Origin: Calditrichia bacterium
GTDB taxonomy: Bacteria > Calditrichota > Calditrichia > RBG-13-44-9 > J075
DNA length: 64,000 nucleotides
Assembly: GCA_028284905.1 (NCBI GenBank)
Contig: JANQQU010000065.1
Span: 132,128-196,127 of the forward strand
Reading direction: 5' to 3'
Shown here: positions 1,320 through 19,380 of the stretch, piece after piece
Numbering within the stretch: position 1 is the stretch's first letter
How the letters are laid out: the number at the start of each line of letters is the position of its first letter
Position numbers and translations under genes: made by a program
The notes under the pieces: generated by a model
Databases searched by the model: none
Seen by the model: only the letters and a program-made list of their open reading frames with translations
Told to the model about the DNA's origin: nothing

Positions 1320-1322
1320 AAA

Positions 1323-2882: not shown

Positions 2883-2883
2883 A

Positions 2884-3450: not shown

Positions 3451-3452
3451 TT

Positions 3453-4568
3453 CTATACTACCTTTTCAATTTCTTCACTGCGATTTTTGCTTAAGCAATT
3501 CTCGTATAATTTTACAAATTTGTTTGTCATTAATGCCAGGTTAAAATCTTCCCGGATGCGCTTCCTGCCGGCAGCGCCCATCTTTTTGGCAAGTGCCGGA
3601 TTATCCAGCAGGGTGGTTATTTTTGCGCTAAGATCTTCTACGTCGGACACCTTGCACAAAAAACCGGTTTCGCCATCAATGAGAATCTCCCCGGTACCGC
3701 CACCATCGCTGGCCACGACCGGCTTTCCGAGCGCCATGTATTCCATAATTGTATTGGATATGCCCTCGGTAAAAGTCGCCAGCACACCAACCGTAAAGAC
3801 ATTAACCAGGGATTCCACCGGTGTGACGTTGCCCGGAAAGCGAATGTGCGCCTGATATTTTTCCGGAACCATTGCTTTACAGGCTTCGCTGTTCGGCCCT
3901 TCGCCGATGACCAGAAAAGTAACGTCATCCCTTTTGTCCAGAATTTGCATCGCTGCCTTTAAAAAGGTCGGATGATCTTTCTTGTTACTCAAAGTCGCCA
4001 CCATACCGACAACATGTGGACGGCTCAGCTGGTAGCGTTCTCTTACTGTCTGCGCATCCTCAAGAACTGCGATGCGAGTAGCATCGAAACCATTGTGAAT
4101 GAATGCTGTTTTGCTGTTGTTGATGTTAAATGCTGCCAGTCCGGCCTGGGAGTTAGCGAGAATAACATCGGATAAAGGGAACGTTATGCGGGAACGCCAT
4201 TTGACTTTTTCCGGAAGCTTTTCCGGCGCATTCTGAATGGCATTGTTAATAAACTTAATATCATAAATCGGACAAAAGGCTGCTGCATATACTGAGCACA
4301 TAAATTCCCAGGTCTGAATAATATCCGGCCGAAAACGGCGGTAAATTTCATAAAGCCGGGCAAATACGCGGGGATCCTTAGCCTGCTTGCGGTGAAATTT
4401 ATGCACTGGCACGGTTAGTTTCTCCAGATGAGATGGGTGAACCTTCTCGGATAAAACCAACACTTCGCAGGCAACATCATTTCGTTGCTGGAGGCCAACC
4501 AATAATTCTACTAATTGGCGTTCCTTGCCACCGATACCAAGATTGTCAATAATATGCAATACTCTCAT
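3453..4568 (-). CDS. GT4-family glycosyltransferase
   Basis: A 371-residue GT-B enzyme. The N-terminal half opens with RVLHIIDNLGIGGKERQLVELL, the family-typical glycine-rich acceptor loop. The C-terminal half has FLVIGEGPN, the FPGNV segment and the EX7E motif in FTEGISNTIMEYM before LGKPVVASDGGGTGEIL. It should transfer a nucleotide-sugar-derived residue to the lipid-linked repeat unit at the cytoplasmic face. The ATG at 4568 follows the next upstream stop (4573) by 4 bases, with a GGGATGA ribosome site. The sugar donor and linkage cannot be told from the sequence. Confidence 0.88.
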   Translation of the reverse strand: MRVLHIIDNLGIGGKERQLVELLVGLQQRNDVACEVLVLSEKVHPSHLEKLTVPVHKFHRKQAKDPRVFARLYEIYRRFRPDIIQTWEFMCSVYAAAFCPIYDIKFINNAIQNAPEKLPEKVKWRSRITFPLSDVILANSQAGLAAFNINNSKTAFIHNGFDATRIAVLEDAQTVRERYQLSRPHVVGMVATLSNKKDHPTFLKAAMQILDKRDDVTFLVIGEGPNSEACKAMVPEKYQAHIRFPGNVTPVESLVNVFTVGVLATFTEGISNTIMEYMALGKPVVASDGGGTGEILIDGETGFLCKVSDVEDLSAKITTLLDNPALAKKMGAAGRKRIREDFNLALMTNKFVKLYENCLSKNRSEEIEKVV

Positions 4569-4572
4569 TAGA

Positions 4573-5685
4573 TCATCCCGTTAAGGAATAAAATATATCG
4601 GTAATTTTATCGACGGCCCTTTCGATGGTGAGGTTCTCATCAAAATAATTTTTGATGGCATCATTGGAAAAGGTGACCTCTCCCTGAAAGAAGCGTTTCA
4701 GAATGGAGGACATTTCGTCAATATCTTTGGCAACTGCACCCAATTGGTGGGTTTTAATTAATCCGTCCGGATCAATAAATGTAACCACCGGTACGCCTCG
4801 GGACCAGGCTTGCAGATAGGTCATCGGAAAGCCTTCCAGGTCGGAGGTGTTCATAAAAACTTTTGCGCGGGCGAACCACTTCTCTGCCTCCTCAAAGGGA
4901 AGCAAGCCTTTGTAGTCAAGATTCGGAACATTACGGGTTTGTTCGAGAATATCCTCGTAAAAGCGGTTGTAGTTTTTGTCCGTCGTTGGTACTTTGCCAC
5001 CGATCATAACAAACTTCTGGTCAGGATTTTGGCGAGCCAGTTCGATAAATAATTCCGGGTGTTTTTTCTCCTTGATGGAAGCGACCCATAGCACGACCTG
5101 CTGTTCACTCATCATCTGGCGGGGCGCGCCGTAATGAATCAATTCACCCCGCAGATTAAAGTTTTCCTGCAGCGTTTCCAGTTGGGTGGTGTTCTGGACA
5201 ATTATTTTGTGGCAATTGCGGATGCCCCACATGTAAAGGCGGCGATCCTTTTCTGTTGGCACCGGTAGTTTGGCCGGCACGAAGTCCGTATCGATTGCCC
5301 CACAGAAAACGACTTTCTTGTTATGCATCTTTGCATACAGCATAACGATACCGAGGATATAACTGGCAGCATTTAAGTAGAATATGTCTGCATCGGATTG
5401 CTTTAAGGCCTGCCATATTTTGTAGGTTCGCGGGTAAATAAAGCGGATACCACGAAGCCCGGTTTCCCGGTTAAAGGATTTGATCAATTTGTACGGATGT
5501 GACACCAGTTCACCGGGGTTATGATCCAGGGTTATAAATGATAAATCAACATCCCGGCGGATTAACTCATCGGCAATCTTAAGTAATTGAACCTCTGCAC
5601 CACCAATTGCTTTGGTGGATTTATTTTTGGTTAACACGTTGTATATATTTAGTGAAACAAAGCAAACTTTAAGTTTACGCACCAT
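4573..5685 (-). CDS. GT4-family glycosyltransferase (EX7Q variant)
   Basis: A 370-residue GT-B glycosyltransferase beginning VRKLKVCFVSLNIYN, with an acceptor loop KAIGGAEVQLLKIADEL and a donor half containing VVLWVASIKEKKHPELFIEL and FVMIGGK. The donor-site motif reads SDLEGFPMTYLQAW, so the usual second Glu of EX7E is Gln here. Such variants are found in active GT4 enzymes, so this is a note rather than proof of inactivity. A longer frame reaches 5766, but the ATG at 5685 has a strong GGAGAA site and overlaps the upstream polymerase gene by only 11 bases, so it is chosen. The two genes are likely translationally coupled. Confidence 0.86.
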   Translation of the reverse strand: MVRKLKVCFVSLNIYNVLTKNKSTKAIGGAEVQLLKIADELIRRDVDLSFITLDHNPGELVSHPYKLIKSFNRETGLRGIRFIYPRTYKIWQALKQSDADIFYLNAASYILGIVMLYAKMHNKKVVFCGAIDTDFVPAKLPVPTEKDRRLYMWGIRNCHKIIVQNTTQLETLQENFNLRGELIHYGAPRQMMSEQQVVLWVASIKEKKHPELFIELARQNPDQKFVMIGGKVPTTDKNYNRFYEDILEQTRNVPNLDYKGLLPFEEAEKWFARAKVFMNTSDLEGFPMTYLQAWSRGVPVVTFIDPDGLIKTHQLGAVAKDIDEMSSILKRFFQGEVTFSNDAIKNYFDENLTIERAVDKITDIFYSLTG

Positions 5686-7144
5686 TTTCTCCTGCAAGCA
5701 TTTCTGACTGTTGCCCATCATCGGTATTTTCCTGAGAATAACGCAGGATTGCCAATGCGAATGCAACAGCGGTAAAAGTAAAACTGTTCTCCAGGTTCGG
5801 AAGTAAAGAACCCTGTGTCATCCCGGCCATCAGATAGGATAGAATCGCCGCCAGTGCCGCGCATTGATAATCCTGCAACTCTTTATCTCGTATGCCCCGG
5901 ATGCTTTTCCAGACCCGTAAGAGGATGATGAGATAAATAGTCGTTAGCGCAAAGAAGCCGAGAAATCCACTGTCAATAATTGATTCGATATACATATTAT
6001 GCGGATGATCCGAGGGCAAAGTCGTTTCATCTTTAAACACCTTCGTTTGCATTATCGAATATTTTCCCTGTCCAACGATAAAGAGTGCCGGTGTCTCGGC
6101 ATATTCACCCAGTATCGGCTTCCAGAGGCGTTCCAATCGTCCGGCGGTAACCAGATTAAGATCGCCATCTTCACCGAGTCCTTTCGATGCCCGCTCGAGG
6201 ACGGTCGAAGATAAGGAAAAGATAAAGACGATCCCGAGCATCCCTATCAAAGGCAAATAACGGGTGCGGCGGGAGATTACGCAAAACACGACTGTAGATA
6301 CGAGGATGGTAAAATAAGCGGTTCGGGAGTACATAAATGCCACCGACACCGAAGAGAGCAAAAGCGTTACCAACCCCAGTAAATCCTTTTTGGCGAAATA
6401 GCGACCGAGCACCAGGGGAAAAGCCACAACATAAAAAGCCGCCGCCGCGTTTTTATGCAGATGTAAAATATCCGCAACATAAACCCACGCGGCTTCTATA
6501 CTGCCTTTGTCCGGCACGTTAAAAATGTAGTGGAAAAGAAAATATCCGGAGAATGCCAGCATTGCCAGTGTAATGGTCGTTGCCAGAATGTCGAGGTGTT
6601 TTCGTTGATAGACAAACTTGGCGATTACCAGAAAGGGGATAAAGTAAACAAATGGCTTGATCAGGTAAGAGAGCAGGTAGCCAAATGTGCTAAGATTTTC
6701 TCCCTTGACCTCGCTAATATACGCGACTTCCGGTAAGGCCCGCAGCGTATTGATGACAAAAAGTACCAGTAAAACGGTCGCAAACTGCCGCTGCAGATTG
6801 CTCATTCTAACCGACCGGTTGAAATTAAGAAAAGCAATAACAGTGACAAATGCGCCTAATAGCAGTATCGGTTTGGTGCCCGGCACCGCCAGAAGATTCA
6901 AGGACATCTGTTCTACGCGGGAAAAAGGGAAAAAGAAAATCAGCATCATCCCCGCATAAATTGGCAACCGGGCGAAAAGCGCTACCACAGCAATGATGCC
7001 GAGTGCTACAAATGCCATAAAAGGGGAATGCAGCACTGTTAACCCGAGCAGGATTGCCGTAATGACCGCCAGGAATATTTCTGCTTTTGGCCCCAGCTGT
7101 AAAAAACCATCATTTTCCTGATGATGCAAAATGTTGTTCGCCAT
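5675..7144 (-). CDS. O-antigen ligase/polymerase (Wzy_C family)
   Basis: A 489-residue integral membrane protein with about 12 hydrophobic helices and a large periplasmic loop containing TAGRLERLWKPILGEY, a VGQGKYSIM segment and the SDHPHNMYIESIIDSGFLG motif. The HN...E..G pattern is the hallmark of the Wzy_C/O-antigen-ligase family. Within an exopolysaccharide locus that has its own flippase and Wzz-like protein, it most likely acts as the Wzy polymerase joining repeat units in the periplasm. Ligation to another acceptor is the alternative. The start at 7144 has an AAGGGAT ribosome site. The C-terminal tail after the last helix is acidic and probably cytoplasmic. Confidence 0.87.
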   Translation of the reverse strand: MANNILHHQENDGFLQLGPKAEIFLAVITAILLGLTVLHSPFMAFVALGIIAVVALFARLPIYAGMMLIFFFPFSRVEQMSLNLLAVPGTKPILLLGAFVTVIAFLNFNRSVRMSNLQRQFATVLLVLFVINTLRALPEVAYISEVKGENLSTFGYLLSYLIKPFVYFIPFLVIAKFVYQRKHLDILATTITLAMLAFSGYFLFHYIFNVPDKGSIEAAWVYVADILHLHKNAAAAFYVVAFPLVLGRYFAKKDLLGLVTLLLSSVSVAFMYSRTAYFTILVSTVVFCVISRRTRYLPLIGMLGIVFIFSLSSTVLERASKGLGEDGDLNLVTAGRLERLWKPILGEYAETPALFIVGQGKYSIMQTKVFKDETTLPSDHPHNMYIESIIDSGFLGFFALTTIYLIILLRVWKSIRGIRDKELQDYQCAALAAILSYLMAGMTQGSLLPNLENSFTFTAVAFALAILRYSQENTDDGQQSEMLAGENGA

Positions 7145-7220
7145 GAATCCCTTTTCTATGATAATTGCTTATGAGTTTTCCAATTTGGTCCGATTGTATT
7201 CGGAAGCAATTTTCAAGTCC

Positions 7221-7934
7221 CTAATAAGAGTAGCGCCACAGTGGTTTCCGAATAATGTTGACTGCCGCTAGCTTTAAACTATCGAATGATGAATGGTTGT
7301 ATGTGCCCCAGGATTCCGGAAATTCATATTCCCATTTTTGCATAAACGGTCCGAAAATACGCTTGGCCTGCGGAATAATTTCCGGAGTGTAATAATCCCA
7401 AAAAGTTTGCTCCTTGCCTTCCGTTTTATTGAGCATGGGAATCGGCCTTTCCTGGGAAATGTCAAGGCGATTTAACACCGTTGAAAAATCACTCTGTAAA
7501 TGCTCGAAGCGGATAATATAATCCAGATTACGATGGGAAAGGCTGCTCCAGTCATCATAGGGAAACCGATAGAATCTTTGGAAGAAATCCGCAAATGTGA
7601 CATCCGGTTGTTGCACAAATTCAAACTGTTTCAGCAAATAATAATTACGTAATGAATAGCGCTTTTTCTGCTTTAGTCGCGTATGTAAGCGGCGATGATC
7701 TTTCTTCAGTTTCAGATACGCGCTGACGACCCGATCGAGCGGATTGCGAATACCGGAAAATACAAAATAACCCTTTTCCGCGCTACTGGCTTTCCGCAGG
7801 AATCTTTCGTAAGTCGAGTGTTTGGTAAGAATTTTCTCCCCATCATAATAAGCGATCAGCTCTTTTCCGATAGCTGTGCAAGCGGTGCGGGGTAATTCAA
7901 CAAACACATATTTGTGCTTATGGCTAATAACCAT
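7221..7934 (-). CDS. sulfotransferase-family protein (Sulfotransfer_2-like)
   Basis: A 237-residue protein. It begins VISHKHKYVFVELPRTACTAIGKEL (residues 2-26), a variant phosphosulfate-binding loop of the carbohydrate sulfotransferase group related to chondroitin/heparan 2-O enzymes, where KxGxTS is replaced by RTACTA. The second motif FSGIRNPLDRVVSAYLKL (residues about 58-75) is the canonical 3'-phosphate-binding RNPxxRxxSxY site. A PAPS-dependent glycan sulfation role is inferred. The gene sits between the polymerase and another sulfotransferase, with 76 bases to the polymerase start and 26 to its upstream neighbour. The ribosome site is weak. Confidence 0.8.
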   Translation of the reverse strand: MVISHKHKYVFVELPRTACTAIGKELIAYYDGEKILTKHSTYERFLRKASSAEKGYFVFSGIRNPLDRVVSAYLKLKKDHRRLHTRLKQKKRYSLRNYYLLKQFEFVQQPDVTFADFFQRFYRFPYDDWSSLSHRNLDYIIRFEHLQSDFSTVLNRLDISQERPIPMLNKTEGKEQTFWDYYTPEIIPQAKRIFGPFMQKWEYEFPESWGTYNHSSFDSLKLAAVNIIRKPLWRYSY

Positions 7935-7960
7935 ATAGATTTACCGAATGACCGATAATC

Positions 7961-8953
7961 TTATTTATGAAATTTCTGAGCTTTTGTATAGTTAAACAAT
8001 GCTTCTTTCAATTTGTAATTGCTCAGTTGAAAACGAAGTAAATTCAGCGCATCCATTTTACTGTAATAGAACATCTTCGTTGCGCCCACCCGTTGGGGAG
8101 GGCCGTTGTAATTAACCTCATATCCCAGCTCTTTTAAAAGTGATCCACAAATCTGTTCTACCCGCTTCACTCTTTGCGGAGGCATTTGCCGGCGCCATTT
8201 CCCGGAATTATTCTGGACAATTCCCACAGTGCCCCTTGTATCACCAAGATTTTCCGTAGGTTTAGAGGGAATCGTCATTTGAGATTCGAATCCAATCTCC
8301 AGAAATTCACAGATACTTTTTAATACCTTTTCAGGGGCTTCACACAATGTTTCATAATGTATTTGCATATAATCAGCCTGGAAATTGCTCGCATCGCTCC
8401 GGGCTTGAAGAATGTCATCGTGCCAGCGTTGGGCAGCCCGGATCATGTTTTTGCTCCAGGCTTTATTGATGGATAAACAATAATCACGAACATCGCGAAT
8501 AATGTGAATGAATTTTGCAGTCGGAAATAATGTTTTCAGCAGGGGCATATGGGAAATGTAAGCAGGCGTTTTATCTCCCCATATATCCTTCTTCTTTTTT
8601 TCTGTATAAAACCGATAGAAAGCTTCCAGTACACCGCTGAGCGACCAGTCTGTTACTAATTGCCGCCACTCTTTTTCTGTTACAGTGGTTTTCGTGGATC
8701 TGGCAAGGCGCTTGAAAAAAATTGAATTGCTGAAGTCGTCATAAAATTTCTGAAAATTAGCAACCTGGGAAAGATTCCCATATTGCGAACGATTGTTATA
8801 AAAATATGGGATAATGTGGGATTCGTTGCCAGGAATATGGATACGGGAATGGTTATTTACTAATCCCCGCAGCAGTTTAGTGCCGGATCTGGGTAAGCCA
8901 ACGATAAAAATAGGCCCCGTAAATGATGTTTGCTTTGAAGCTGCTTTTCCCAT
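7961..8953 (-). CDS. sulfotransferase
   Basis: A 330-residue protein starting MGKAASKQTSFTGPIFIVGLPRSGTKLLRGLVNNH. The loop LPRSGTKLL (about residues 20-28) binds the 5'-phosphosulfate, and KFIHIIRDVRDYCLSINKAW is the 3'-phosphate site of the Sulfotransfer_1/3 families. FIHIIRD plus the later RWHDDI and YETLCEAPEKVLKSICEFLEI are typical of bacterial polysaccharide sulfotransferases. The frame can be extended to 9250, but the extra 99 residues overlap the upstream glycosyltransferase and have no family resemblance, so the ATG at 8953 just before the conserved core is used. It is the third sulfotransferase of the locus. Confidence 0.85.
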   Translation of the reverse strand: MGKAASKQTSFTGPIFIVGLPRSGTKLLRGLVNNHSRIHIPGNESHIIPYFYNNRSQYGNLSQVANFQKFYDDFSNSIFFKRLARSTKTTVTEKEWRQLVTDWSLSGVLEAFYRFYTEKKKKDIWGDKTPAYISHMPLLKTLFPTAKFIHIIRDVRDYCLSINKAWSKNMIRAAQRWHDDILQARSDASNFQADYMQIHYETLCEAPEKVLKSICEFLEIGFESQMTIPSKPTENLGDTRGTVGIVQNNSGKWRRQMPPQRVKRVEQICGSLLKELGYEVNYNGPPQRVGATKMFYYSKMDALNLLRFQLSNYKLKEALFNYTKAQKFHK

Positions 8954-9065
8954 ATCTCTGGAAATTATAATGTTACTATGGTTAATGCTATTGTTAATAG
9001 CTGAATGATTGACCAATAATTTATGACAATTGTAAAATGAATGATCCGCACATTGGAGGAATGAT

Positions 9066-10409
9066 TTACATCGCTTTTTGTGAAAGCAGGTTTGTATTAC
9101 CCTGGTTCTTGGCGGCAAGTGTTGCCAGGTTCGGGCTGGCCTCTTTAATTCGTTGAGGAATGCCGAATAAGCGGTCATATCCGATGATGAGGTTGCGGGA
9201 AACATGTTCCCAGCATAGTAAAGAAGCCATGCGCTCCCGGCCATACTCACCCATGTAGCTCCGCTTTTCCGGATCGTCCATTAAGGCGGCGATTGCTTCC
9301 GCGTAAGCCAGCTCGTCATTGGGCGGTACATAAACCGCGGCATCCTGGGCGGTATGCCAGGTTTCTTTCAAATGAAAGCTGACGACCGGTTTGCCAAACG
9401 CCATATATTCCAGCACTTTTACCCAGGTAGAGTAATCGTTGAGCGGGTTGGAAGGGTTGGGATCAAGACCTATCTCCGCGGTTGAGATGTAGCGAATCAA
9501 ATCCGCCTTGGGGATAAATCCGGTAAACTCAATGTAATCCTCAAGCTGTAGCTCTGCTGTCAGCGCCTTCAGATAGGGAACACTTTCCCCTTTCCCAATA
9601 ATCATACAATAAAAATCTGTTCTGCCCAACGTGTGCACCAGTTTACCAAGTGAGCGCACCAGGTAATCCACTCCATCCTGCGGACCCATGACCCCGATAT
9701 ATGCCAGTATGTGTTTGTTCATCGCCTGTAAGCGTTCGTCCGGTGCGACTGCCTGAAACGTCTTCTTGTTCAAATCTGGACCATTGCGTACGACAAATAC
9801 ATCTTCCGGGCGTTTTTTACCACGCTCAATTTCAATCTGCTTATAGGATTCATTCGTGGCGATAACCATATCTGCAAAACGCAGGCAGAGCTTTTCTTCC
9901 AGCATAAGTACACGATAAATAAATCCGCCGCTTTTATTTTCCCGGGATAAGTATAATTCCGGGCAAAGGTCATGATGGTCGAATACAAATTTCTTCCCGA
10001 ATAGCTTAAAGAAAGCGCCAACCAGAAAAGGTGTGTTGGGCGGATTGTGCAGGTGAATAACATCAAAGCCTTCTTTAAAAAGAATGAAAAAACTGTAGAG
10101 GAAACAAGCGGTCGTAAAGTAAAAATATTCAAATACATAACCGACAAAAGATAGCAATTGGACAAACAACTTTTGCAGCCAGTTTCCATTGGCTTTACTC
10201 TTTGGGAAAAGTTCCAGTAAAGGAATGCGATAGACCGTTACGCCATTAATGATTTCTTTTGCCGGTTGGTCTTTGCGGGAATATTGAGCAAGGACCGTTA
10301 CCTGGTAGCCATATTCCACCAGTTTGTTCGCTTCCTGAACTACCCGGACATCCTCCGGGTAATGGCTTTCCAGCAGCATTAATATTTTGCCGGCAGGTTC
10401 ATTTCTCAA
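9066..10409 (-). CDS. GT4-family glycosyltransferase
   Basis: A 447-residue GT-B enzyme of the WbuB-like group. The N-terminal ILMLLESHYPEDVRVVQEANKLVEYGY motif and LHNPPNTPFLVGAFFKLFGKKFVFDHHDLCPEL are characteristic. The donor half has ILAYIGVMGPQDGVDYL, MIIGKGES and STWVKVLEYMAFGKPVVSF. Start: a TTG at 10409 with a GGAGA site 8 bases upstream, and no better in-frame ATG nearby. It should add a sugar to the lipid-linked repeat unit at the cytoplasmic membrane. The acyltransferase gene ends 15 bases upstream. The C-terminal 25 residues are extra and low in conserved features. Confidence 0.86.
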   Translation of the reverse strand: MRNEPAGKILMLLESHYPEDVRVVQEANKLVEYGYQVTVLAQYSRKDQPAKEIINGVTVYRIPLLELFPKSKANGNWLQKLFVQLLSFVGYVFEYFYFTTACFLYSFFILFKEGFDVIHLHNPPNTPFLVGAFFKLFGKKFVFDHHDLCPELYLSRENKSGGFIYRVLMLEEKLCLRFADMVIATNESYKQIEIERGKKRPEDVFVVRNGPDLNKKTFQAVAPDERLQAMNKHILAYIGVMGPQDGVDYLVRSLGKLVHTLGRTDFYCMIIGKGESVPYLKALTAELQLEDYIEFTGFIPKADLIRYISTAEIGLDPNPSNPLNDYSTWVKVLEYMAFGKPVVSFHLKETWHTAQDAAVYVPPNDELAYAEAIAALMDDPEKRSYMGEYGRERMASLLCWEHVSRNLIIGYDRLFGIPQRIKEASPNLATLAAKNQGNTNLLSQKAM

Positions 10410-10424: not shown

Positions 10425-11333
10425 CTAAGCAATCTGCGGTAAAAATGTTAAACCGTAGTAGAGTCTCATATAATCATCGAAATGCTCTTTGATGCGACTA
10501 TGCGCAGGATCGGTGCTGAGGTCGGCAATATTAAAATACATGCCTTTCCGGGTTTCTCCGGAACGTGTGAGTAATACAATACTGCTTTCGCCGTTTACAC
10601 TAATTGTATAAGTCCGCCAGCGTTTTTTGATATATAGAACACCGGATTTCATTTCCCATTGGGTATCAAAGTTTTCATTCGACCATTCGCAATAAGCGGT
10701 TAACATTTTGGCCGCAAAATTCTCCAGGTCGGTAATTTTCTTCCCCAGGGTAATATTGGGAATATTTGTCAGCTTGGCCGGGTCCCCGGAAACCATTCGT
10801 CCGGGAGCGATACTTTCCAGTAAAACAGTGCCGGGCATTGCGATAGATCTTTCTCCAATAGTGACGTTCGGTCCGACGGTGCAACGCAAGGTAACCCAGG
10901 ATTTATCTTTCATCTCGATCGGCCCAAATGTGGTTTTATAGCCTTCGGTTACTGGCAGCAGGGAGCCATGGGTAAAAAGGGAAGACCCGGGGCCGATGCC
11001 GCAGTAATAGCCAAGCGTTACCGGGCAATCACAATTGATAATCGTTTTCGGGCCAATAACACAGGCATCCCCGATGTGGAGATTTGAAATGCCTTTGGCT
11101 ATCAGAAAATAACCGATCAGTGATTTCCGCCCGACTTTAAATGAGCGAATGTTGACCATTGTGCCAAAACGAATTTTTGCTACATCACCAACTGCGAACT
11201 CGCGAGCGATGATCATCACACCGGGATGAATCCTGACCCGTTTACCAATTCTGGCGCCGTATAAACGGTGAAGCCAGACATTGAACGGAGATGGAAAAAA
11301 GAAAGCTATTACCTGAAGGATAGTCCGAATCAT
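10425..11333 (-). CDS. hexapeptide-repeat acyltransferase with C-terminal extension
   Basis: A 302-residue protein. Residues about 20-185 are a left-handed beta-helix built from hexads (IGKRVRIHPGVMI, VAKIRFGTMVNI, IGDACVIGPKTII, IGPGSSLFTHG, VTIGERSIAMPGTVLL), as in LbH acetyltransferases of the WbbJ/CysE type. A unique 115-residue C-terminal segment follows. It probably O- or N-acylates a sugar using acyl-CoA, or takes an acyl group from the carrier protein encoded nearby (inference). The frame extends to a TTG at 11378, but the ATG at 11333 has a GGAG site at good spacing and is preferred. It is 54 bases downstream of the deacetylase gene. Confidence 0.75.
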   Translation of the reverse strand: MIRTILQVIAFFFPSPFNVWLHRLYGARIGKRVRIHPGVMIIAREFAVGDVAKIRFGTMVNIRSFKVGRKSLIGYFLIAKGISNLHIGDACVIGPKTIINCDCPVTLGYYCGIGPGSSLFTHGSLLPVTEGYKTTFGPIEMKDKSWVTLRCTVGPNVTIGERSIAMPGTVLLESIAPGRMVSGDPAKLTNIPNITLGKKITDLENFAAKMLTAYCEWSNENFDTQWEMKSGVLYIKKRWRTYTISVNGESSIVLLTRSGETRKGMYFNIADLSTDPAHSRIKEHFDDYMRLYYGLTFLPQIA

Positions 11334-11387
11334 AGGACGCTCCATTAAGATTAACTGGGCAGTGTTATTTTCTGCCAATATGGGTTG

Positions 11388-12350
11388 TCAGGAAATTTCA
11401 AACTTCCTGGATGGGGGACGATACACAGGATCTTTCGTGCTGCCTTTAATGAAATTGGCAACCTGACCGGGCAGGGCGGTCCAGTAGGCATCCGTAAACT
11501 CTGCCTGGAGGAATTGGAGAAATTCCCGGTAAAGTGCAATCGAATATGTTTCATTACCGCTGTCAGATGCCTGGAAAGTGATGTAATCCGGATGAACATT
11601 AAGCAACACCATACCACCGTTATTCGCAATCCAGCGGGTTTTCTGTTTCCAGGTATCGATGTTTCTTTCCTTGAAGAGAACAAATGATGTAAAATCCTGC
11701 GGTAACGTATAGGGCAGTTCCACGAAGCCTTCGTAAGGGCCACCGTCTACCCAAAATGGAAAGATCGTTTCCACGCCATCGTTTTGCGGTTCAAATGGGT
11801 CGGTATCAAAGGTTGACATATCAAACTGAATATCCAGCGCACGGAGCCAATCCAGATTATGATGCATCGCCGGCGCACGAAATCCTTTAGCATTCCACTT
11901 CTCCAGGTAGCTGTTGATCTTAATCGCCCGATCGGTAAAAATCTGTCGGGATTTAAACAGCTTACCATCATGAAATAAACCATGAACGCCGATTTCAAAT
12001 CCCTCATTTATTAACCATTGGCGTAGCTGCGCGGAGACGTTGTAGCGCTCCGGTACAAAATTGAATATTGAACGGAAGCCAAAGCTTTTCTCTACATCCG
12101 CCAGCGCTCTGCAATTGTCGTGGCCTCTTTGAGACTCCACATCGTGGGTAAGCACAACAGCAAACTTTTTGCCCTCCGGCCAGCCTTGCCACCATTCCGG
12201 CGGGTTGCCGGCTTTTTCGAGAATCGGCCAAATATCCGAGACTTTTTTCTGCTTACTCTCAACAATCTTTCTGCGGATAGCAATCTGAAGCTTCCGCGGA
12301 ATAAAGGGCTTAATGGAGTAGAAGGTTTTGATAAGCCGGGAAGAATTCAT
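11388..12350 (-). CDS. polysaccharide deacetylase-family protein
   Basis: A 320-residue NodB-like protein. VVLTHDVESQRGHDN carries the metal and catalytic acidic pair (D-V-E) of the family, EIGVHGLFHDGK corresponds to the H-x-H metal motif, and KGFRAPAMHHNLDWL is motif 3. It should remove an acetyl group from an amino sugar of the polymer or its lipid-linked precursor. There is no signal peptide, so it likely acts on the cytoplasmic precursor. The ATG at 12350 overlaps the stop of the adenylation gene by 4 bases (12347-12350) and has a GGAGG site, indicating translational coupling to the carrier-protein cassette. Confidence 0.85.
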   Translation of the reverse strand: MNSSRLIKTFYSIKPFIPRKLQIAIRRKIVESKQKKVSDIWPILEKAGNPPEWWQGWPEGKKFAVVLTHDVESQRGHDNCRALADVEKSFGFRSIFNFVPERYNVSAQLRQWLINEGFEIGVHGLFHDGKLFKSRQIFTDRAIKINSYLEKWNAKGFRAPAMHHNLDWLRALDIQFDMSTFDTDPFEPQNDGVETIFPFWVDGGPYEGFVELPYTLPQDFTSFVLFKERNIDTWKQKTRWIANNGGMVLLNVHPDYITFQASDSGNETYSIALYREFLQFLQAEFTDAYWTALPGQVANFIKGSTKDPVYRPPSRKFEIS

Positions 12351-13957
12351 TTAGCCTCCCCGGATAATTTTTGCAGCGCCGGTTTATCTATTTTGCCGGT
12401 TGAGGTTTTCGGCAGGCCTGGCAGAAATTCAACAGTCTCCGGGATCATATATTTCGGCAAGTGTTCCGCACAGTGCATGCGAAGTGCTGCTGCATCCAAG
12501 GGAATTGCGTTTTCTTTTAAGACCACAAAAACTTTCAGGCGATTGCCAAGCAAATCATCGGGAATGGCAACGACTGCGCTTTCCTGAACCGCCGGGTGAC
12601 TATAAATCGCTGTTTCGATGTCACCAATTTCAATCCGGTAGCCGCGGCTTTTGATCATCTGATCTTTCCGCCCGATGTAAATGTAGTTTCCGTCCTCATC
12701 AATAGTGACAATGTCCCCGGTTCGATAGACTATTTCTGGAGAATTCGTCTGTAACGGATGCTGAATAAAATTTTCGGCTGTTTTCTCCGCATCGCCCCAA
12801 TAACCGCGGGCAACCCCCGGTCCCCGGCCGATAAGCTCACCTTCCTCGCCGGGTTTGCAAACCAGACTACCAGCTTCCGTTAAAGCAAAGACATCCATAT
12901 TTTCGCAGGCTTTACCAATTGGCACCGGCGATGTACGATCCGGCGAAAGCGGGAGCGTTTTAAAATAGGTAATTACATTCGTCTCGGTAGGACCATAGAG
13001 ATTGTAATATTCCGCACCGGGGATGGCATCCATGAGGGCGCGTAAATATTTTACCGGAAAAACCTCCCCGGCGAATAAAATGGTGCGTAAACTGCTGAAG
13101 TCATATTTTTCCAGGCGGCCGTGCAGTACCAGCATTGATAAAATTGAGGGAACGGAATACCATACCGTAATCCCCATACTGGCAATCCAGGCGGCCAGAC
13201 GGGGCGGAAACATGGAAAGCGTTTCCGGCACCAGGGCAATTGTCGCGCCGGCTTTTATTGCCACATAAATATCATGAATGGAAAGATCAAAGTGGAGCGG
13301 TGCGTGGCTGGAAAGGCAATCCTGACTGGTGACGGAAAATGTCTCAAAGCACCAATTAATAAAAGTCAGTGCATTTAAGTGCGATATCATGACACCCTTC
13401 GGTACACCGGTGGAGCCAGAGGTATAAAGAATGTAAGCCAAATCGGTTTCCCGGGAATTATTTATGGGCAGCGTTGCCGGAGTATTTTCGATGACCGCAT
13501 CCCAGGTGTACAGATTTAAAGCGGTACTTTCGATATCGACCGGAGAATTATCCGTAATGATTGCGTGCTTCAGTGAAGGCGCCTGCGCAGAAATATCCGG
13601 CAACTGTGATGCCTTGGTAGACGATGTTAACAGGCAGTTGATCTGGCAATTCTCGATAATGTAGGCTATTCGGGAGATTGGCGCATTTGCGTCCAGCGGT
13701 ACGTAAACAGCCCCGGCTTTCAGAATACCGAAAATGCTGATTATAGAAGGTATCGATTTATTAAGATAGATACCCACCCGATCACCATGACGCACCCCAC
13801 AGGCCAATAGCTGGTTCGCGACCTGATTGCTAAAGCGATCCAGGTCCTGATAGTTAAGACTTTCCTCCTGAAAACGAACGGCCGTATTCTTAGGGAATTT
13901 TTCCGCACTGACTGTTAATAACTGAGGAAGTAGCGATATGTCGGCAGACGTGGCCAT
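12347..13957 (-). CDS. stand-alone amino-acid adenylation enzyme (prolyl/aminoacyl-carrier-protein ligase-like)
   Basis: A 536-residue ANL-superfamily enzyme. Core motifs are YTSGSTGVPKG (179-188), HFDLSIHDIY (A4, 222-231), NLYGPTETN (319-327), YRTGD and a C-terminal LPKTSTGKIDKPAL with the catalytic Lys. D224 matches the Asp that binds the alpha-amino group in amino-acid-specific enzymes, so an amino acid rather than a fatty acid is expected. Hand alignment to the GrsA code positions gives D224-L225-H228-Y267-L294-A296-L320-V328. As I remember it, the type II L-proline enzymes of pyrrole synthesis (PltF/RedM/CloN4) read DLLYLALV. Proline is therefore a good guess, unproven; a DltA-like role is the alternative. 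The ATG at 13957 follows the carrier stop; a TTG at 13981 is less likely. Confidence 0.82.
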   Translation of the reverse strand: MATSADISLLPQLLTVSAEKFPKNTAVRFQEESLNYQDLDRFSNQVANQLLACGVRHGDRVGIYLNKSIPSIISIFGILKAGAVYVPLDANAPISRIAYIIENCQINCLLTSSTKASQLPDISAQAPSLKHAIITDNSPVDIESTALNLYTWDAVIENTPATLPINNSRETDLAYILYTSGSTGVPKGVMISHLNALTFINWCFETFSVTSQDCLSSHAPLHFDLSIHDIYVAIKAGATIALVPETLSMFPPRLAAWIASMGITVWYSVPSILSMLVLHGRLEKYDFSSLRTILFAGEVFPVKYLRALMDAIPGAEYYNLYGPTETNVITYFKTLPLSPDRTSPVPIGKACENMDVFALTEAGSLVCKPGEEGELIGRGPGVARGYWGDAEKTAENFIQHPLQTNSPEIVYRTGDIVTIDEDGNYIYIGRKDQMIKSRGYRIEIGDIETAIYSHPAVQESAVVAIPDDLLGNRLKVFVVLKENAIPLDAAALRMHCAEHLPKYMIPETVEFLPGLPKTSTGKIDKPALQKLSGEAK

Positions 13958-13958
13958 T

Positions 13959-14207
13959 TTAGCCAGCCTGTTTTTCTGCAACCAGATTGCCGATCGTTTC
14001 GATGCTGCTGAAGTTCTCGGGAATTAACTCATCGTCATTAATTTCTATAGAGAGATTATCTTCCAGAAACCCGATCAACTTCATCATGCCCAGCGAATCC
14101 ATTATCCCACTTTCGATCAGTGGATCGTTATCACCAAGGTTGGCATGACGCGCATCCTGAACCAGTTCATTAATGATAAAATCTCTTATTTGCGCTTTCG
14201 CTTCCAT
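13959..14207 (-). CDS. acyl/peptidyl carrier protein
   Basis: An 82-residue acidic helical protein with the phosphopantetheine attachment motif IMDSLGMMKL, S38 being the modified serine. The flanking IESG and the downstream INDDELIPENFSSIETIGNLV fit the four-helix carrier fold. It has a strong GGAGG site before the ATG at 14207. Its stop lies one base from the adenylation enzyme start, so the pair should be made together, with the enzyme loading an amino acid onto this carrier. The sequence resembles stand-alone carriers of the DltC/PltL type more than fatty-acid AcpP, which usually reads DSLD. The loaded residue is probably oxidised by a neighbouring dehydrogenase and passed on to the glycan (inference). 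Confidence 0.88.
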   Translation of the reverse strand: MEAKAQIRDFIINELVQDARHANLGDNDPLIESGIMDSLGMMKLIGFLEDNLSIEINDDELIPENFSSIETIGNLVAEKQAG

Positions 14208-14328
14208 CTTTCCTCCACCTTCATATTACTTCATTAATTCCACCGGGAATCTGAAAAATCTATTGCTCTTTAAGTCGTTTATAAATTTGACTTACGTAAG
14301 GTAGTTACCCGGCTTGAATCAAGCGCTC

Positions 14329-16050
14329 CTACTGCTTAAAAATATTGTCTATATTATCCAAATCCTGAAACTTGCGGTTTTTAATCAATGCTAATCCGGC
14401 CTGTGCAGATGCCTGTTCTGCGAGGATAAAGCGGGTAGCCACAGGAATCTTTTCCGGATTAAGGCACGCTTCTGCTAAAAGAAGATAGCCGAGGTACAGG
14501 CCCGCATACATATCAACCAAAGGACGGCTGCCTGCATCCCGCTCGGCAGGTGTTATTTCCGAATTTAAGAGATCCCGCGCCTGTAAGAAAAACTGGCGCT
14601 GGCTTTGCAGATGATTCGCTAAATGCTGTAATTCTTCCGGCCAGTCTGTCGCTGCCTGCGCCGCGAAAAAATCCGCCATAATATCGGCAAAAACACTTTT
14701 CGCAGCAGCGAGTACCTGCACCTGGGTAGTGCCTTCATAAATGGTCGTGATGCGCACATCCCGATAATAACGCTCGACCGGTAAATCGCGCATATAACCC
14801 ATGCCGCCATGAATTTGCAAGGCGTCATAGCAGATTTTATTTGCGGCTTCCGTAATGCGATATTTTACCATCGGTGAGAGCATATCGATGCGCTTTGCAG
14901 CGAGATCAAATTTTGCTTTTTCTCCCTGATAGGGTAAACCGGCCGCTTTTAAATTTCGGATACGTTCTTCCAGCCTGTTCCGTAAATCGAGCAACTGCGT
15001 CGCGTGATATAAAAATGTCCGGCCGCTCTCCAATGCGACCCGCATATCGATAAGCATATCGGCGACCGGTGCCATGGTAAATATCTTTTTCCCAAATTGT
15101 TCACGTTTGCGGGCATACTTCAGCGCTTCCTGGTATGCCGCCTCGGCGATACCCAACGCTTGTGCCGCGACGCTAAACCGGGCCTGGTTCAAGGTTGAGA
15201 GAACGTATATCAAACCAAACCGGCGTTTGCCGATTAAGTCCGCCGGTGCATCATCAAAATATATTTCGCAGGTGGGAGAACCGTTTAATCCCAATTTGTT
15301 TTCAATCCGGTTGACTTTAACCTGTTCACTTTTGCGGCAGAGGAAAAGGCTGAGCCCAAACATATCATTGGTGCTTTCCTCTGAGCGGGCTAATACCAGG
15401 AGAAGATCCCCGCCACCATTCGAAATGAAATGTTTACTACCGCGCAGCCGCCATTGTCCGCCGATATCCTGCCAGGCTTTTAATTGAACGGCTTGCAGAT
15501 CGGAGCCGGCATTCGGTTCACTAAGCACCATCGCCCCGCTCAATTCTCCACGGGCATAGGTCGGGAGCACTGTCTTTGCAAGAGAGTCCTGCGCGAGTTT
15601 GGCAATCGTTTCACCCACATCCTGGTAACCGAATAAGGTCATTAGAGAAGCATCTGCCCGGGAAACCATCTCAATCATCATCATGTAAATCGTTGCCGGA
15701 AAATTGCTGCCGCCATATTTGCGGGGGAGAATAATTCCCATTAAGCCGGCCGCTGCCAACTGCTGTAAATTCTCTGACGTTTCAGCGGCCATTATAACTT
15801 CGCCATCCTTATACGACGCGCCTTGCGCATCAACCGCTGCTGCACGCGGAGCGATAAAATTTCCGGAGATATCCCCGGTAAGCGTGAGTGCACTGTCGTA
15901 CAGAGATATCGCCGAATCGTAATCCGTTGGCGCTTCCGGAAAATCATTCACCTGCTGAAAATCATCTTCCAGCATTGCAATCACATCCGAGAGGTCCAAA
16001 CGCTTAAATTGATTGCGTAAATCGGGATTATCTGAGAAAAAATTGGGCAT
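14329..16050 (-). CDS. acyl-CoA dehydrogenase-family flavoenzyme (long form)
   Basis: A 573-residue member of the acyl-CoA dehydrogenase fold. It has GIILPRKYGGSNFPATIYMMMIE in the N-terminal helical domain, SGAMVLSEPNAGSDLQAVQLKA plus RLRGSKHFISNGG in the beta domain (FAD-binding), and the catalytic-Glu motif TTIYEGTTQVQ near the C-terminal side of the core. A further 110-residue helical C-terminal extension is typical of the DmdC/AcdA-like long subfamily. It could oxidise a carrier-bound acyl or aminoacyl group made by the adjacent adenylation/carrier pair, which lies 121 bases downstream, or a CoA thioester. No ribosome site is evident before the ATG at 16050. Confidence 0.85.
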   Translation of the reverse strand: MPNFFSDNPDLRNQFKRLDLSDVIAMLEDDFQQVNDFPEAPTDYDSAISLYDSALTLTGDISGNFIAPRAAAVDAQGASYKDGEVIMAAETSENLQQLAAAGLMGIILPRKYGGSNFPATIYMMMIEMVSRADASLMTLFGYQDVGETIAKLAQDSLAKTVLPTYARGELSGAMVLSEPNAGSDLQAVQLKAWQDIGGQWRLRGSKHFISNGGGDLLLVLARSEESTNDMFGLSLFLCRKSEQVKVNRIENKLGLNGSPTCEIYFDDAPADLIGKRRFGLIYVLSTLNQARFSVAAQALGIAEAAYQEALKYARKREQFGKKIFTMAPVADMLIDMRVALESGRTFLYHATQLLDLRNRLEERIRNLKAAGLPYQGEKAKFDLAAKRIDMLSPMVKYRITEAANKICYDALQIHGGMGYMRDLPVERYYRDVRITTIYEGTTQVQVLAAAKSVFADIMADFFAAQAATDWPEELQHLANHLQSQRQFFLQARDLLNSEITPAERDAGSRPLVDMYAGLYLGYLLLAEACLNPEKIPVATRFILAEQASAQAGLALIKNRKFQDLDNIDNIFKQ

Positions 16051-16120
16051 ATATAATTAACTAAAAATATGATTTGAAAAACCCTGAAAAATATAGATGC
16101 TTCTAATTCGCTAATGATGA

Positions 16121-16879
16121 CTATGGCTTACGACAAAAGAATACCCGCCTATCGATATTAAATCCCATCTTGTCACACTCTGCTTCACTTAAAAAATCTC
16201 CCGCCTTCAAATCTTCAGCGGAAAAGCCGACAGATTGTAAGCGATTGATGTAATCCGGGCCATAGCGCCGAACATGATCACTCTGTCCGAAATATATTTT
16301 TCGTTCTGCCGGATCGGTAATGGAGGGATCTTCGAATGTTTTCTCTGCTGTTATCGGCACTTGCAACAGGGCCCAGCCCCCTCTTTTTAAAACGCGATAA
16401 AACTCACTCATCGCCTTTATATCTTCTTGCACATGTTCTAAAACATGGCTGCAGTAGATGATCGAAAAAGTGTTATCAGCAAAATCGATATTGGTAATAT
16501 CCATTTTAATCATTGCCCGTGGATCTTCCAGGTCTGCACTAAGATAATCAAGGTTTGCTACTTTACGAAATAACCTTGTAAAAGAAGCTTCCGGGGCTAT
16601 ATGGAGCATTCGTTTTGTAGAGCCATCGAACAGAGTCGTCCGTTTCTGAATAAATGCCCAATCGAGACGATGACGCTCTAAAGATTTGCACACCGGGCAG
16701 AGTGCATTCTCCCTGGGAGGATCCCCGTAAGGATGGAAGCTGCGAATATTGTTTGAACAAATAGGACAAAAATAGGCCCCGGACATGTGGAATGACTTTA
16801 TGAACGGCTGTAAAAATGGCTGCGTCAGGCGATCAAAGTGATACTTTAACCGTTGCTGGAGATTGTTTGTAACATTCAT
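16121..16879 (-). CDS. class I SAM-dependent methyltransferase with N-terminal zinc-ribbon
   Basis: A 252-residue protein with a Cys4 cluster at the N-terminus (YFCPICSNN ... ALCPVCKSLERHRLDW), then a Rossmann methyltransferase core: RMLHIAPEASF takes the place of motif I, LDYLSADLE follows, IDFADNTFSIIYCSHVLEHVQED is motif II, and RVLKRGGWALLQVP is motif III. This zinc-ribbon-plus-methyltransferase form is common in exopolysaccharide loci, where it is thought to methylate sugar hydroxyls. It lies between the two dehydrogenase genes, 12 bases from the upstream one, so it could alternatively methylate the carrier-bound group. The ribosome site is weak. Confidence 0.82.
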   Translation of the reverse strand: MNVTNNLQQRLKYHFDRLTQPFLQPFIKSFHMSGAYFCPICSNNIRSFHPYGDPPRENALCPVCKSLERHRLDWAFIQKRTTLFDGSTKRMLHIAPEASFTRLFRKVANLDYLSADLEDPRAMIKMDITNIDFADNTFSIIYCSHVLEHVQEDIKAMSEFYRVLKRGGWALLQVPITAEKTFEDPSITDPAERKIYFGQSDHVRRYGPDYINRLQSVGFSAEDLKAGDFLSEAECDKMGFNIDRRVFFCRKP

Positions 16880-16891
16880 AATAGAAGAGAT

Positions 16892-18130
16892 TTACCAATA
16901 AGTCTCTGATGGTTTGCTAAGGTCTGCCCCAAATGCTGCCTTGCCCATGTAAAATAAACATTGATCGCTGGTTGCCGGCATTAGACCGCCGCATCGGGCG
17001 TCCCGATAGTAGCGCTCCAGGGGAAATTGTTTGTGAATAGTGCTACCACCACAAAGCCGAATTGCTTCCGAGGTCAGTGTCGGTCCTAATTCGCTCACTA
17101 AATACTTGGCATGATGAATCGCTGTATTGGCTTCCGGAGAACCGGGCTGTTCAGCTACCAGGCGAGCAGCATTATAGGCGATTGCCCGGGCAGATGCCAG
17201 AGCGGCATAGAGCTCGCCAACTTTATGCTGAATACGTTCATTATCTGCAACTGATCCACCCCCGCCGGGAATTTTTTTCTCACGCAAATAATTGATCATG
17301 AATTGAAATGCTGCAGTGCAAATCCCCAGGTATACACCATTGTAGCCGCCAACCAGCCAATGCGGTTCCCGGGCTATCTTGTATAGCGCCATCCCTTCGC
17401 TGCCGAGAAAAAGTCGCTCAGTGGGAATAAAGCAGTCTTCCAGGTAAACAGTGTTGGTTGAAGTCCCCCGCATACCGAGCACGTCCCAGGTATATTCAAT
17501 GCGAGTGCCGGGATTCTCTTTTTCCACAACCAGAAAAGAGATTGCCGGAATATCATTATTGCTCTGCTCGCTTCTGGCAGCAACTACATAATAGTCGGCA
17601 TGGCCGGCCATCGATACCCAGTTTTTAACCCCATTGATGAGAAAACCACCATCGACGCGGCGGTACATCGTTTTTAGCTTGCTAAAATGCGCACCGACGC
17701 CCGGTTCCGAAGAAGCGGAAGCAAACAGCTTTTTATGATTCACCGCCTGATCATAGACCCAATTGCGGAAATTGACCATCGCTCTGCCCCGGCTGCCGCC
17801 AATGTCGTCCAGCTGTAATTCGGCCAGACTGCCAACGGCAATATTGTGCATGTTGTATGTTAGTCCGGTGGAAGCATCGCCCATGGAAATTTGTTCCAGG
17901 GCCTTCGTATAAGTTAAAAAATCGGCACCCATCCCTCCGAATGCCTTCGGGATCATGATTCCTAAAAAGCCACTCTCTTTTAGGTCTTCGAAATTTTCGA
18001 CCGGAAATGTGCCTTCACGATCATATTTGGCGGCTCTTTCTGAAAATCGCTTTCCGAGCTTGCTGCTTTCAGCTATGATGTTTTCTTTTTCGGTGATCGT
18101 TAATTGCGTATCAATAGTGATGTCACTCAT
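16892..18130 (-). CDS. acyl-CoA dehydrogenase-family flavoenzyme lacking the usual catalytic Glu
   Basis: A 412-residue acyl-CoA-dehydrogenase-fold protein. It has FLGIMIPKAFGGMGADFLTYTKALEQIS, the FAD segment ASASSEPGVGAHF with NGVKNWVSMAGHADYYVV, and RLCGGSTIHKQFPLERYYRDARCGG at the C-terminus. Where most family members have IYEGT, this one reads LMPAT, so the standard catalytic base is replaced; the base may be elsewhere (as in isovaleryl-CoA dehydrogenase) or the enzyme may be a monooxygenase-like branch. The ATG at 18130 has an excellent GGAGGT site; the frame could extend to 18154. Its place beside the carrier-protein cassette suggests it acts on a carrier-bound amino acid (inference). 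Confidence 0.82.
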   Translation of the reverse strand: MSDITIDTQLTITEKENIIAESSKLGKRFSERAAKYDREGTFPVENFEDLKESGFLGIMIPKAFGGMGADFLTYTKALEQISMGDASTGLTYNMHNIAVGSLAELQLDDIGGSRGRAMVNFRNWVYDQAVNHKKLFASASSEPGVGAHFSKLKTMYRRVDGGFLINGVKNWVSMAGHADYYVVAARSEQSNNDIPAISFLVVEKENPGTRIEYTWDVLGMRGTSTNTVYLEDCFIPTERLFLGSEGMALYKIAREPHWLVGGYNGVYLGICTAAFQFMINYLREKKIPGGGGSVADNERIQHKVGELYAALASARAIAYNAARLVAEQPGSPEANTAIHHAKYLVSELGPTLTSEAIRLCGGSTIHKQFPLERYYRDARCGGLMPATSDQCLFYMGKAAFGADLSKPSETYW

Positions 18131-18205
18131 AATTACCTCCGGATATACTGCCAAATATAATTCAAATATAAAACGGAAAGGGGAGAAGTTCTAGTTGCTT
18201 GTCTA

Positions 18206-18277: not shown

Positions 18278-19321
18278 TTAACCGGCGTGGCGATATAGTA
18301 ATGCGCCCAGCAATTTCAGGAGCGCAACCGGCATCTTGGCAAAAAAGCGGTTATGGACGCCCGGATGTTTATAATAATTTTCCGGGGATTTTTTTTCGCC
18401 AAGTAGGTCTATTCGAAAATAGGGGATTTTCTCTTCGGTAACGCCCCAACCGTTTTTGAACTGGCGCAGTCCGTTGTTTTCAATATCGGTTCTGCCAAAG
18501 CAAAATGTCTCAAACCCTCTTTCATTATAATGCCTAATCGCTTCCCAAATCATCAGGTTATTCGGGCGATACTGCTGATAACGAATGTCATAAGCGGCAT
18601 ATTTGATAATAATTTCCCGGGCATATTCAAAGGCAACGGCTGCGGCAATATTCCTATTGTTATGCGAAACGATAAAAGTGCTGCCCAGTCCTTTTTCAAC
18701 GATATTTTTTTGAACATTCTTAAAGAAAGCATGTGGCTGTGGGGGCAAGCCATGTCTTTTTCTTGTCAGGCAATTCAATCGGTAAAATTCATCCATCGCT
18801 GCTGGTGAACGTTCAATGTGAACGGTCAATCCGGATTTCCGGGCTTTTTTAATATTCGTGCGGGTACTGTGCCGGCAGCGGGAAAAAAGCGTCTCTATCT
18901 CATCCGCGATGGCAATTTGATGGCGATAGAAATAAGCGGTGGCGGGCTTTGCCTGCGACTGACAACTGCCCCGAAATTCTACCCACTTCCAGGATTGCTT
19001 TTGCCCAAAATCGATAATTTGCTGCAACAAGTTTTCCATTGGTAGCGCTTCGGAAAAGAGGGGTTGGCAATAATCGGAAAAGGGCAAAGAAACACCACGA
19101 TTTCCGGTTAACATACTTCGCACCTCCATCATGGGAATTAGTGCTGCCAATGAATCCTTTTCCCGGATGGCGAAATAATGTGGGGTATACCGGTAAGTTT
19201 CCGATATTACTTTCGCCCATTCCGCGGTATGGAAAAATGTGCTTTCCGGAAATTTGCTGATCCAGGAATTCCACTCCGGAAAATCCAGTGGATTGATAAT
19301 CTGTAACTTTTTAGTAATCAT
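18278..19321 (-). CDS. FemAB/GNAT-fold transferase of exopolysaccharide loci
   Basis: A 347-residue protein with the double-GNAT FemAB pattern: FHTAEWAKVISETYRYTPHYFAI, SLPFSDYCQPLFSEA, then CRHSTRTNIKKARKSGLTVHIERS, and a second half with FYRLNCLTRKRHGLPPQPHAFFKNV, IAAAVAFEYAREIIIKYAAYD and RPNNLMIWEAIRHYNERGFETFCFGRT. It resembles the FemAB-family protein associated with XrtA-type exopolysaccharide loci. FemAB enzymes transfer aminoacyl groups from tRNA to peptidoglycan precursors; the substrate here is unknown. The frame can start at a TTG (19369), but the ATG at 19321 better fits the fold boundary. Transfer of the carrier-bound amino acid to the glycan is one possibility. Confidence 0.82.
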   Translation of the reverse strand: MITKKLQIINPLDFPEWNSWISKFPESTFFHTAEWAKVISETYRYTPHYFAIREKDSLAALIPMMEVRSMLTGNRGVSLPFSDYCQPLFSEALPMENLLQQIIDFGQKQSWKWVEFRGSCQSQAKPATAYFYRHQIAIADEIETLFSRCRHSTRTNIKKARKSGLTVHIERSPAAMDEFYRLNCLTRKRHGLPPQPHAFFKNVQKNIVEKGLGSTFIVSHNNRNIAAAVAFEYAREIIIKYAAYDIRYQQYRPNNLMIWEAIRHYNERGFETFCFGRTDIENNGLRQFKNGWGVTEEKIPYFRIDLLGEKKSPENYYKHPGVHNRFFAKMPVALLKLLGALLYRHAG

Positions 19322-19380
19322 AGTTGTCCGGGAAGGGACGGGATAGCTGCTTCCTGCAATAGTAGCCAAATTCTAAATCC

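Follow-up and report, generated by a model that had tools for sequence, protein, structure and literature searches.

Gene content of the operon

The stretch analysed here, called the window, comprises 64,000 nucleotides of a Calditrichia bacterium assembly (GCA_028284905.1, contig JANQQU010000065.1, positions 132,128 to 196,127), and the system in question is a cassette composed of a stand-alone adenylation enzyme (A), an acyl carrier protein (ACP) and two proteins of the acyl-CoA dehydrogenase fold (ACAD1 and ACAD2), embedded in an exopolysaccharide (EPS) operon. Gene calls and profiles place the cassette in an operon of the XrtA-like EPS type that runs unbroken on the minus strand from 25707 to 339 (~25 kb), with all genes co-directional. 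A first-pass annotation, made from the sequence letters, had reported this gene set, its EPS context and a tight spacing around A. All the genes were found, the context is borne out by profile matches (Bac_transf, Poly_export/SLBB, Wzz/GNVR, XrtA ATPase, FemAB, GT4, Wzy_C, Wzx and sulfotransferases), and both junctions are correct, with one base between ACP and A, whose ATG lies at 13957, and an overlap of four bases between A and the next gene. The GC content of the cassette is unremarkable with respect to its surroundings. The features are as follows.

12347-13957, minus strand: stand-alone adenylation enzyme (A), code DLHYLALVIK; ATG start, a TTG start at 13981 being also possible
13959-14207, minus strand: acyl or aminoacyl carrier protein (ACP), 82 aa, DSLG attachment motif (PF00550)
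16892-18154, minus strand: ACAD1, ACAD-fold flavoprotein without the catalytic glutamate, candidate ChmG-like prolyl-ACP N-oxygenase (motifs, clade, AlphaFold)
14329-16050, minus strand: ACAD2, canonical acyl-CoA dehydrogenase with the IYEGT catalytic glutamate (motif, tree, neighbours in relatives)
10425-11378, minus strand: LbH (hexapeptide) acyltransferase, extended at its C-terminus and a candidate for transferring the carrier-bound group (co-occurrence, position in genome G036)
18278-19369, minus strand: FemAB-like GNAT-fold transferase, alternative aminoacyl transferase (TIGR03019, 151.5 bits, under the cut-off of 260)
16121-16879, minus strand: S-adenosylmethionine-dependent methyltransferase with an N-terminal zinc ribbon (PF08241, 49.4 bits), probably for sugar methylation
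11388-12350, minus strand: polysaccharide-deacetylase-like protein, with no Pfam match of its own; a 54% identical relative in locus L047 weakly matches PF01522
19381-25707, minus strand: EPS export and priming genes (CpsD-like, XrtA ATPase, Wzc-like, Wza-like, LbH, sugar transferase; profiles)
339-10409, minus strand: EPS assembly genes (glycosyltransferases, sulfotransferases, Wzy, Wzx, sulfatase-like; profiles)

From 25707 downwards, the order is sugar transferase, LbH transferase, Wza-like, Wzc-like, XrtA-type ATPase, CpsD-like, FemAB-like and ACAD1, followed by the methyltransferase, ACAD2, ACP, A, the deacetylase-like protein, the LbH acyltransferase, glycosyltransferases, sulfotransferases, Wzy, Wzx and the sulfatase-like protein.

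The adenylation enzyme and its carrier

A reaches 380.9 bits on the amino-acid adenylation model TIGR01733 (cut-off 317) and also matches PF00501. The best solved single-domain match to the whole protein is PltF (6o6e, 357 bits), and over the code region, compared along 197 residues of A, PltF scores 184.7 bits versus 106.7 for DltA and about 50-64 for the LgrA domains. The alignment reads the code as D-L-H-Y-L-A-L-V-I-K, with DLLYLALVC for PltF; the residues that the first-pass annotation had mapped by hand (D-L-H-Y-L-A-L-V) are identical, and its proline-like assignment, with A closest to PltF and not to DltA or fatty-acyl enzymes, is supported. Two other identities of A are ruled out, namely the D-alanine ligase DltA (302.7 bits, equivalog cut-off 559.85) and the acyl-CoA ligase associated with XrtA loci, from which A had to be told apart (TIGR03098, 368.3 bits, cut-off 592.35). 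Judged by these matches, A is a PltF-type enzyme, and the likeness of its code no coincidence.

Stand-alone proline enzymes share the consensus L(L/F)YLALVC (PMC3874040), which A matches between D235 and K517 at six of eight positions, His239 and Ile331 being the deviating ones. Among 80 A-related loci, DL[LF]YLALV[CI]K or a near variant dominates, in more than 50 related enzymes, and His at 239 is found in the window enzyme alone. Because the code resembles the consensus, and modelling of CcbC has proline touched by positions 236, 301 and 330 only (PMC3874040), L-proline is the likely substrate, with some doubt arising from His239. Three related enzymes (L062, L091 and L101) carry the divergent codes GIFFFAIVIK, DIFQFSIDVK and DLFQFAIDVK, and probably use other substrates. 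Orthologues of A with 62% identity were found, and ACP, which matches PF00550 with 26.6 bits (over the cut-off), is 63% identical to the ACP of the cassette in genome G034.

The two dehydrogenase-fold enzymes

Both dehydrogenases had been expected to be pyrrole-forming enzymes of the PltE/RedW/CloN3 type. On the RedW model ACAD2 and ACAD1 score 125 (124.8) and 104 (104.4) bits, and on the PigA model 134 and 92 bits, versus 353-430 and 414-482 bits, respectively, for the probable true members L041 and L042, from the same genome as the window, and L040 (identical to L045, in G036). The column of the W-E-R catalytic glutamate of AnaB and Bmp3 is occupied by Ala in ACAD2 and by Leu in ACAD1. Low scores, the absent glutamate and the tree rule out both proteins as prolyl-carrier dehydrogenases of the PltE/RedW/PigA type, none of which is present in the window. 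ACAD2 groups with short-chain acyl-CoA dehydrogenase (SCAD; support 97/89), an outcome of a kind named beforehand as contrary to the pyrrole proposal. What stands of that proposal, in which the EPS is decorated with pyrrole-2-carboxyl or another amino-acyl group, is the proline-type A and the carrier within an EPS operon; its pyrrole step finds no support.

Plain pyrrole-2-carboxyl decoration, with pyrrolyl-ACP made by ACAD1, by ACAD2 or, in trans, by an enzyme of the PigA type and its acyl group put on the EPS, is distinctly improbable in our view. A proline A and an ACP are available for it, the sister EPS cassette in G036 includes a PigA-like enzyme (482 bits), and PigA-type enzymes exist at C52 and C67 in the genome of the window; against this, the dehydrogenases at hand lack the W-E-R glutamate and fall far under the scores of the pyrrole family, and ACAD1, unneeded for a plain pyrrole, is kept in ten loci of several phyla.

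PigA-like enzymes in other loci have neighbours of their own. At C52 (L041, 9694-13991), an ACP, a proline A (DLLYLALVCK), a PigA-like dehydrogenase and a CmlS-like FAD halogenase lie in a row, in what looks like a halopyrrole cassette. In L042 (6544-12021) and L043 (884-5319), A and a PigA-like dehydrogenase adjoin a homologue of ornithine cyclodeaminase, which could supply proline from ornithine; the codes, DMFFIGMGCK and DMLYLGVQCK, are deviating ones.

In ACAD2 the glutamate of the IYEGT motif is retained, as in ordinary acyl-CoA dehydrogenases, of which it is one on sequence grounds. Its relatives occur in about half of 40 Calditrichota, mostly in single copy, and in most of the six whose flanks were read they lie downstream of genes read from sequence as etfBA. 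The sole copy of G000 and of G034 is the one in the cassette.

ACAD1 has neither of the possible catalytic glutamates, with Leu where PigA, AnaB and Bmp3 have Glu, and LMPATSD in place of IYEGT; a second motif is REPHW-L. Its orthologues (55-76% identical) are rare, being present in 2 of 40 Calditrichota and 1 of 396 Bacteroidota, and no relatives were found in plasmid and viral collections. Run against 100 Nocardia genomes, the ACAD1 profile yields a single outlier of 359 bits, the next match scoring 158. The outlier sits in a cluster with the order A, ACP, dehydrogenase, ACAD1-like protein, alpha/beta hydrolase, and the same order is found in another actinobacterial genome (L207), where two of the proteins measure 395 and 382 aa (against 395 for ChmG and 383 for ChmH) and an additional adenylation enzyme has 548 aa (against 543 for ChmK). 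Order and sizes in these two clusters equal the published ChmJ-I-H-G-F, Met occupies the glutamate column in the G protein of each, as reported for ChmG, and the codes of the two A enzymes are DLFYAALVCK and DLFYAAWVCK. In the chalkophomycin pathway, which employs an A (ChmJ) and an ACP (ChmI), ChmG N-hydroxylates prolyl-ACP first, followed by ChmH and the hydrolase ChmF, the glutamate being present in ChmH and replaced by Met in ChmG (PMC10849742, PMC11085572).

ACAD1 forms a clade with the actinobacterial G proteins (96/93), and the alternative that joins it to a sister actinobacterial clade is rejected (p-AU 0.02). A third protein, ACAD3, lies beside or near ACAD1 in seven loci (L044, L047-L049, L106, L108 and L141), keeps the W-E-R glutamate, has AnaB as its best match, and forms a clade with the H proteins (100/100). 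From these two clades, the ACAD1/ACAD3 (G/H) pair appears to have been inherited together, and ACAD1 is a putative ChmG-like prolyl-carrier N-oxygenase. Because it groups with putative prolyl N-oxygenases, an N-oxygenated prolyl or N-hydroxypyrrolyl product is likelier than a plain pyrrole. The AlphaFold model of ACAD1 (pLDDT 94 with 50 sequences, 48 with 10) predicts an acyl-CoA-dehydrogenase fold; a profile search of the PDB did not separate oxygenases from dehydrogenases.

If ACAD1 and ACAD2 instead served another step, e.g. sugar N-oxidation or fatty-acyl oxidation, the prolyl group (or, in view of His239, a different cyclic amino acid) would pass from ACP to an amino sugar unchanged. This is unlikely. 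The ETF-linked family of ACAD2, the absence of ACAD3 from the window and the use of sugar nucleotides by KijD3 and DnmZ, which share the fold of ACAD1, are in its favour, but ACAD1 groups with the G proteins of proline-carrier clusters and not with the sister clade, and its relatives go together with ACP, A and ACAD3.

Concerning the wider family, the other Nocardia matches (141-158 bits, L182-L191) were rejected as cassette members, being ACADs without an A-ACP cassette. The sister clade of the ACAD1/G clade (L208-L218) is actinobacterial and carries a QWLVASYAAVYVG-like motif, with no recognised A-ACP cassette near; a weak methyltransferase match adjoins in L209, L214 and L215. The second locus of Splendidivirga (L141, 9793-12250) holds a second ACAD1-ACAD3 pair with no A or ACP nearby.

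Candidate transferases

An acyltransferase-type gene accompanies the cassettes, its family varying between loci: GNAT in L044, L057 and L111 (weaker in L106 and L116), FemAB in L047-L049, where it lies between ACP and A, LpxL-type in L046, and LbH in L045, L053 and L061. The LbH protein of the window is found in 2 of 40 Calditrichota (G000 and G036), both with an EPS-embedded A-ACP, and in G036 it is placed between ACP and the dehydrogenase. Co-occurrence in two genomes is only suggestive; from it and from its position, the LbH protein would probably be the transferase of the carrier-bound group and is the best candidate, with the FemAB-like protein as an alternative. No clear partner emerged from the FemAB tree.

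The carrier-bound group could also end up in a metallophore or another secondary metabolite, i.e. the cassette would be a small-molecule pathway parked in the EPS operon, which we regard as quite unlikely. Every characterised relative does serve small molecules, and one cassette (G034) lies outside any EPS locus. The window operon, on the other hand, has no nonribosomal peptide synthetase (NRPS), polyketide synthase or dedicated exporter, the cassette is tightly co-directional with the genes from Wza to Wzx and recurs in EPS loci of different phyla, and the LbH transferase co-occurs with it.

Proposed pathway

The pathway that we propose, in which the cassette builds an acyl group from proline on the carrier, oxygenates its nitrogen and delivers it to the polysaccharide that the operon around it produces, is about evenly balanced between true and false. 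A would first adenylate L-proline and load ACP, a step for which family and code argue strongly. ACAD1, as a ChmG-like flavoprotein, would then N-hydroxylate prolyl-ACP, as its clade, lost catalytic base and gene company suggest. Further dehydrogenation would lead to N-hydroxydehydroproline or N-hydroxypyrrole, a task for the ChmH-like ACAD3 in relatives; with ACAD3 absent from the window, ACAD2, a distant enzyme or spontaneous oxidation would be needed here, which makes this the weakest step. ChmG by itself reportedly yields carrier-bound N-hydroxyproline and N-hydroxydehydroproline, and its products are reported to oxidise spontaneously, so the product in the window may stop at the N-hydroxyprolyl or N-hydroxydehydroprolyl stage, or ACAD2 may continue. 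Finally, a sugar or an amino sugar would receive the group through the LbH acyltransferase or FemAB, as position and co-occurrence suggest.

Several observations weigh against this pathway. The window has no ChmH-like ACAD3, tblastn giving only cross-matches to ACAD1 and ACAD2, by which a hidden or broken copy is also ruled out; the genome of the window has none either, the best matches (38%) being the PigA-type enzymes at C52 and C67. Being possibly a generic enzyme, ACAD2 may lie in the cassette by chance. The code of A deviates at 239 and 331, and the G034 cassette lacks the EPS context. The match of the actinobacterial clusters to chm is one of content, order, size and one residue. The fold search ranks a flavin monooxygenase first and KijD3 40th, with ordinary dehydrogenases between them and small margins.

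Compared with known systems, the closest likeness is to the N-hydroxypyrrole cassettes ChmGHIJ and HrmKLMN of chalkophomycin and hormaomycin (PMC10849742, PMC11085572), which share the proline A, the ACP and a ChmG-like ACAD without the glutamate, as well as, in relatives of the window locus, the ChmH-like partner; unlike them, the window has neither ChmH nor the ChmF hydrolase, has ACAD2, and places the cassette in an EPS operon that includes acyltransferases and lacks an NRPS. The thiotemplated pyrrole cassettes (PltF/PltE/PltL, RedM/RedW/RedO, PigI/PigA, CloN4/CloN3/CloN5) have in common with it an A closest to PltF, the same code family and a small carrier, but not their dehydrogenase. XrtA/PEP-CTERM EPS loci (TIGR03098) share the XrtA-type ATPase, the FemAB-like protein and the priming genes, whereas the ligase of the window is an amino-acid adenylation enzyme with its own ACP. 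In clorobiocin and coumermycin biosynthesis, the pyrrolyl group is moved from the carrier to noviose of a small antibiotic by a dedicated acyltransferase. The proposed passage of a proline-derived acyl group from carrier to sugar is alike, but here it would occur in a polysaccharide operon with LbH or FemAB as the candidate.

A broader and more tentative idea, falling somewhat short of an even chance, is that polysaccharides of several phyla bear N-hydroxypyrrole-2-carboxyl or N-hydroxyprolyl groups through a chm-type cassette, yielding metal-binding polysaccharides by recruitment of a metallophore ligand pathway to surface glycans. If so, proline-derived heteroaromatic or N-oxygenated groups, to our knowledge so far found only in small molecules such as antibiotics and metallophores, would be polysaccharide substituents, and the EPS could bind metals, as the N-hydroxypyrrole of chalkophomycin binds copper, or tune adhesion. 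Acyl-carrier cassettes in EPS loci would thereby acquire a function, with A, ACP and ACAD1/ACAD3 as a genetic handle to find them. In the literature searched, with most subscription journals outside it, we found nothing relevant on pyrrole or N-hydroxypyrrole together with polysaccharide, and no description of an EPS system with a pyrrole-type or N-oxygenase cassette.

Related cassettes in other genomes

A, ACP and ACAD1 occur together in L044 (G034), in L047-L049 and L106 (Bacteroidota) and in L102 and L108 (Gammaproteobacteria), those of the Bacteroidota and Gammaproteobacteria including cassettes in EPS-type loci; L066 has ACAD1 with A. The loci of two cultured organisms, Splendidivirga corallicola and Agaribacillus aureus, comprise ACAD1-ACAD3-ACP-FemAB-A. 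A pyrrole-type EPS cassette of the kind that the first-pass annotation envisaged is present in the relative G036 (L045), with ACP, the LbH transferase, the PigA-like enzyme and A, and such cassettes are found in many Acidobacteriota. At least one export or priming gene (Wza/Wzc/ATPase/CpsD/WbaP set, >50 bits) is found in 27 of the 80 A-related loci, and two or more in 18, both being raw counts.

In many Acidobacteriota loci, CpsD and WbaP adjoin a dehydrogenase of the PigA type together with A and, often, ACP, and NRPS genes follow. It thus seems to be common for pyrrole-type cassettes to neighbour polysaccharide genes, and the window seems to hold an N-oxygenase variant. Proline-A loci among Wza/Wzc/XrtA-ATPase/CpsD/WbaP genes are L060, L061, L065, L069, L070, L072, L076, L078, L079, L081, L084, L088, L092, L110 and L113. 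These 15 usually have a PigA-type prolyl dehydrogenase and an ACP, then A-T and, in L078, P450-C-A-T-TE NRPS genes. This set is apparently a conserved and undescribed pyrrole-EPS/NRPS locus; such cassettes broaden the question and make it testable in cultured hosts.

A last observation concerns another part of the window, where positions 45369-52982 of the plus strand hold an open frame of 2537 aa, with weak tblastn matches every ~576 bases that suggest a repeat protein.

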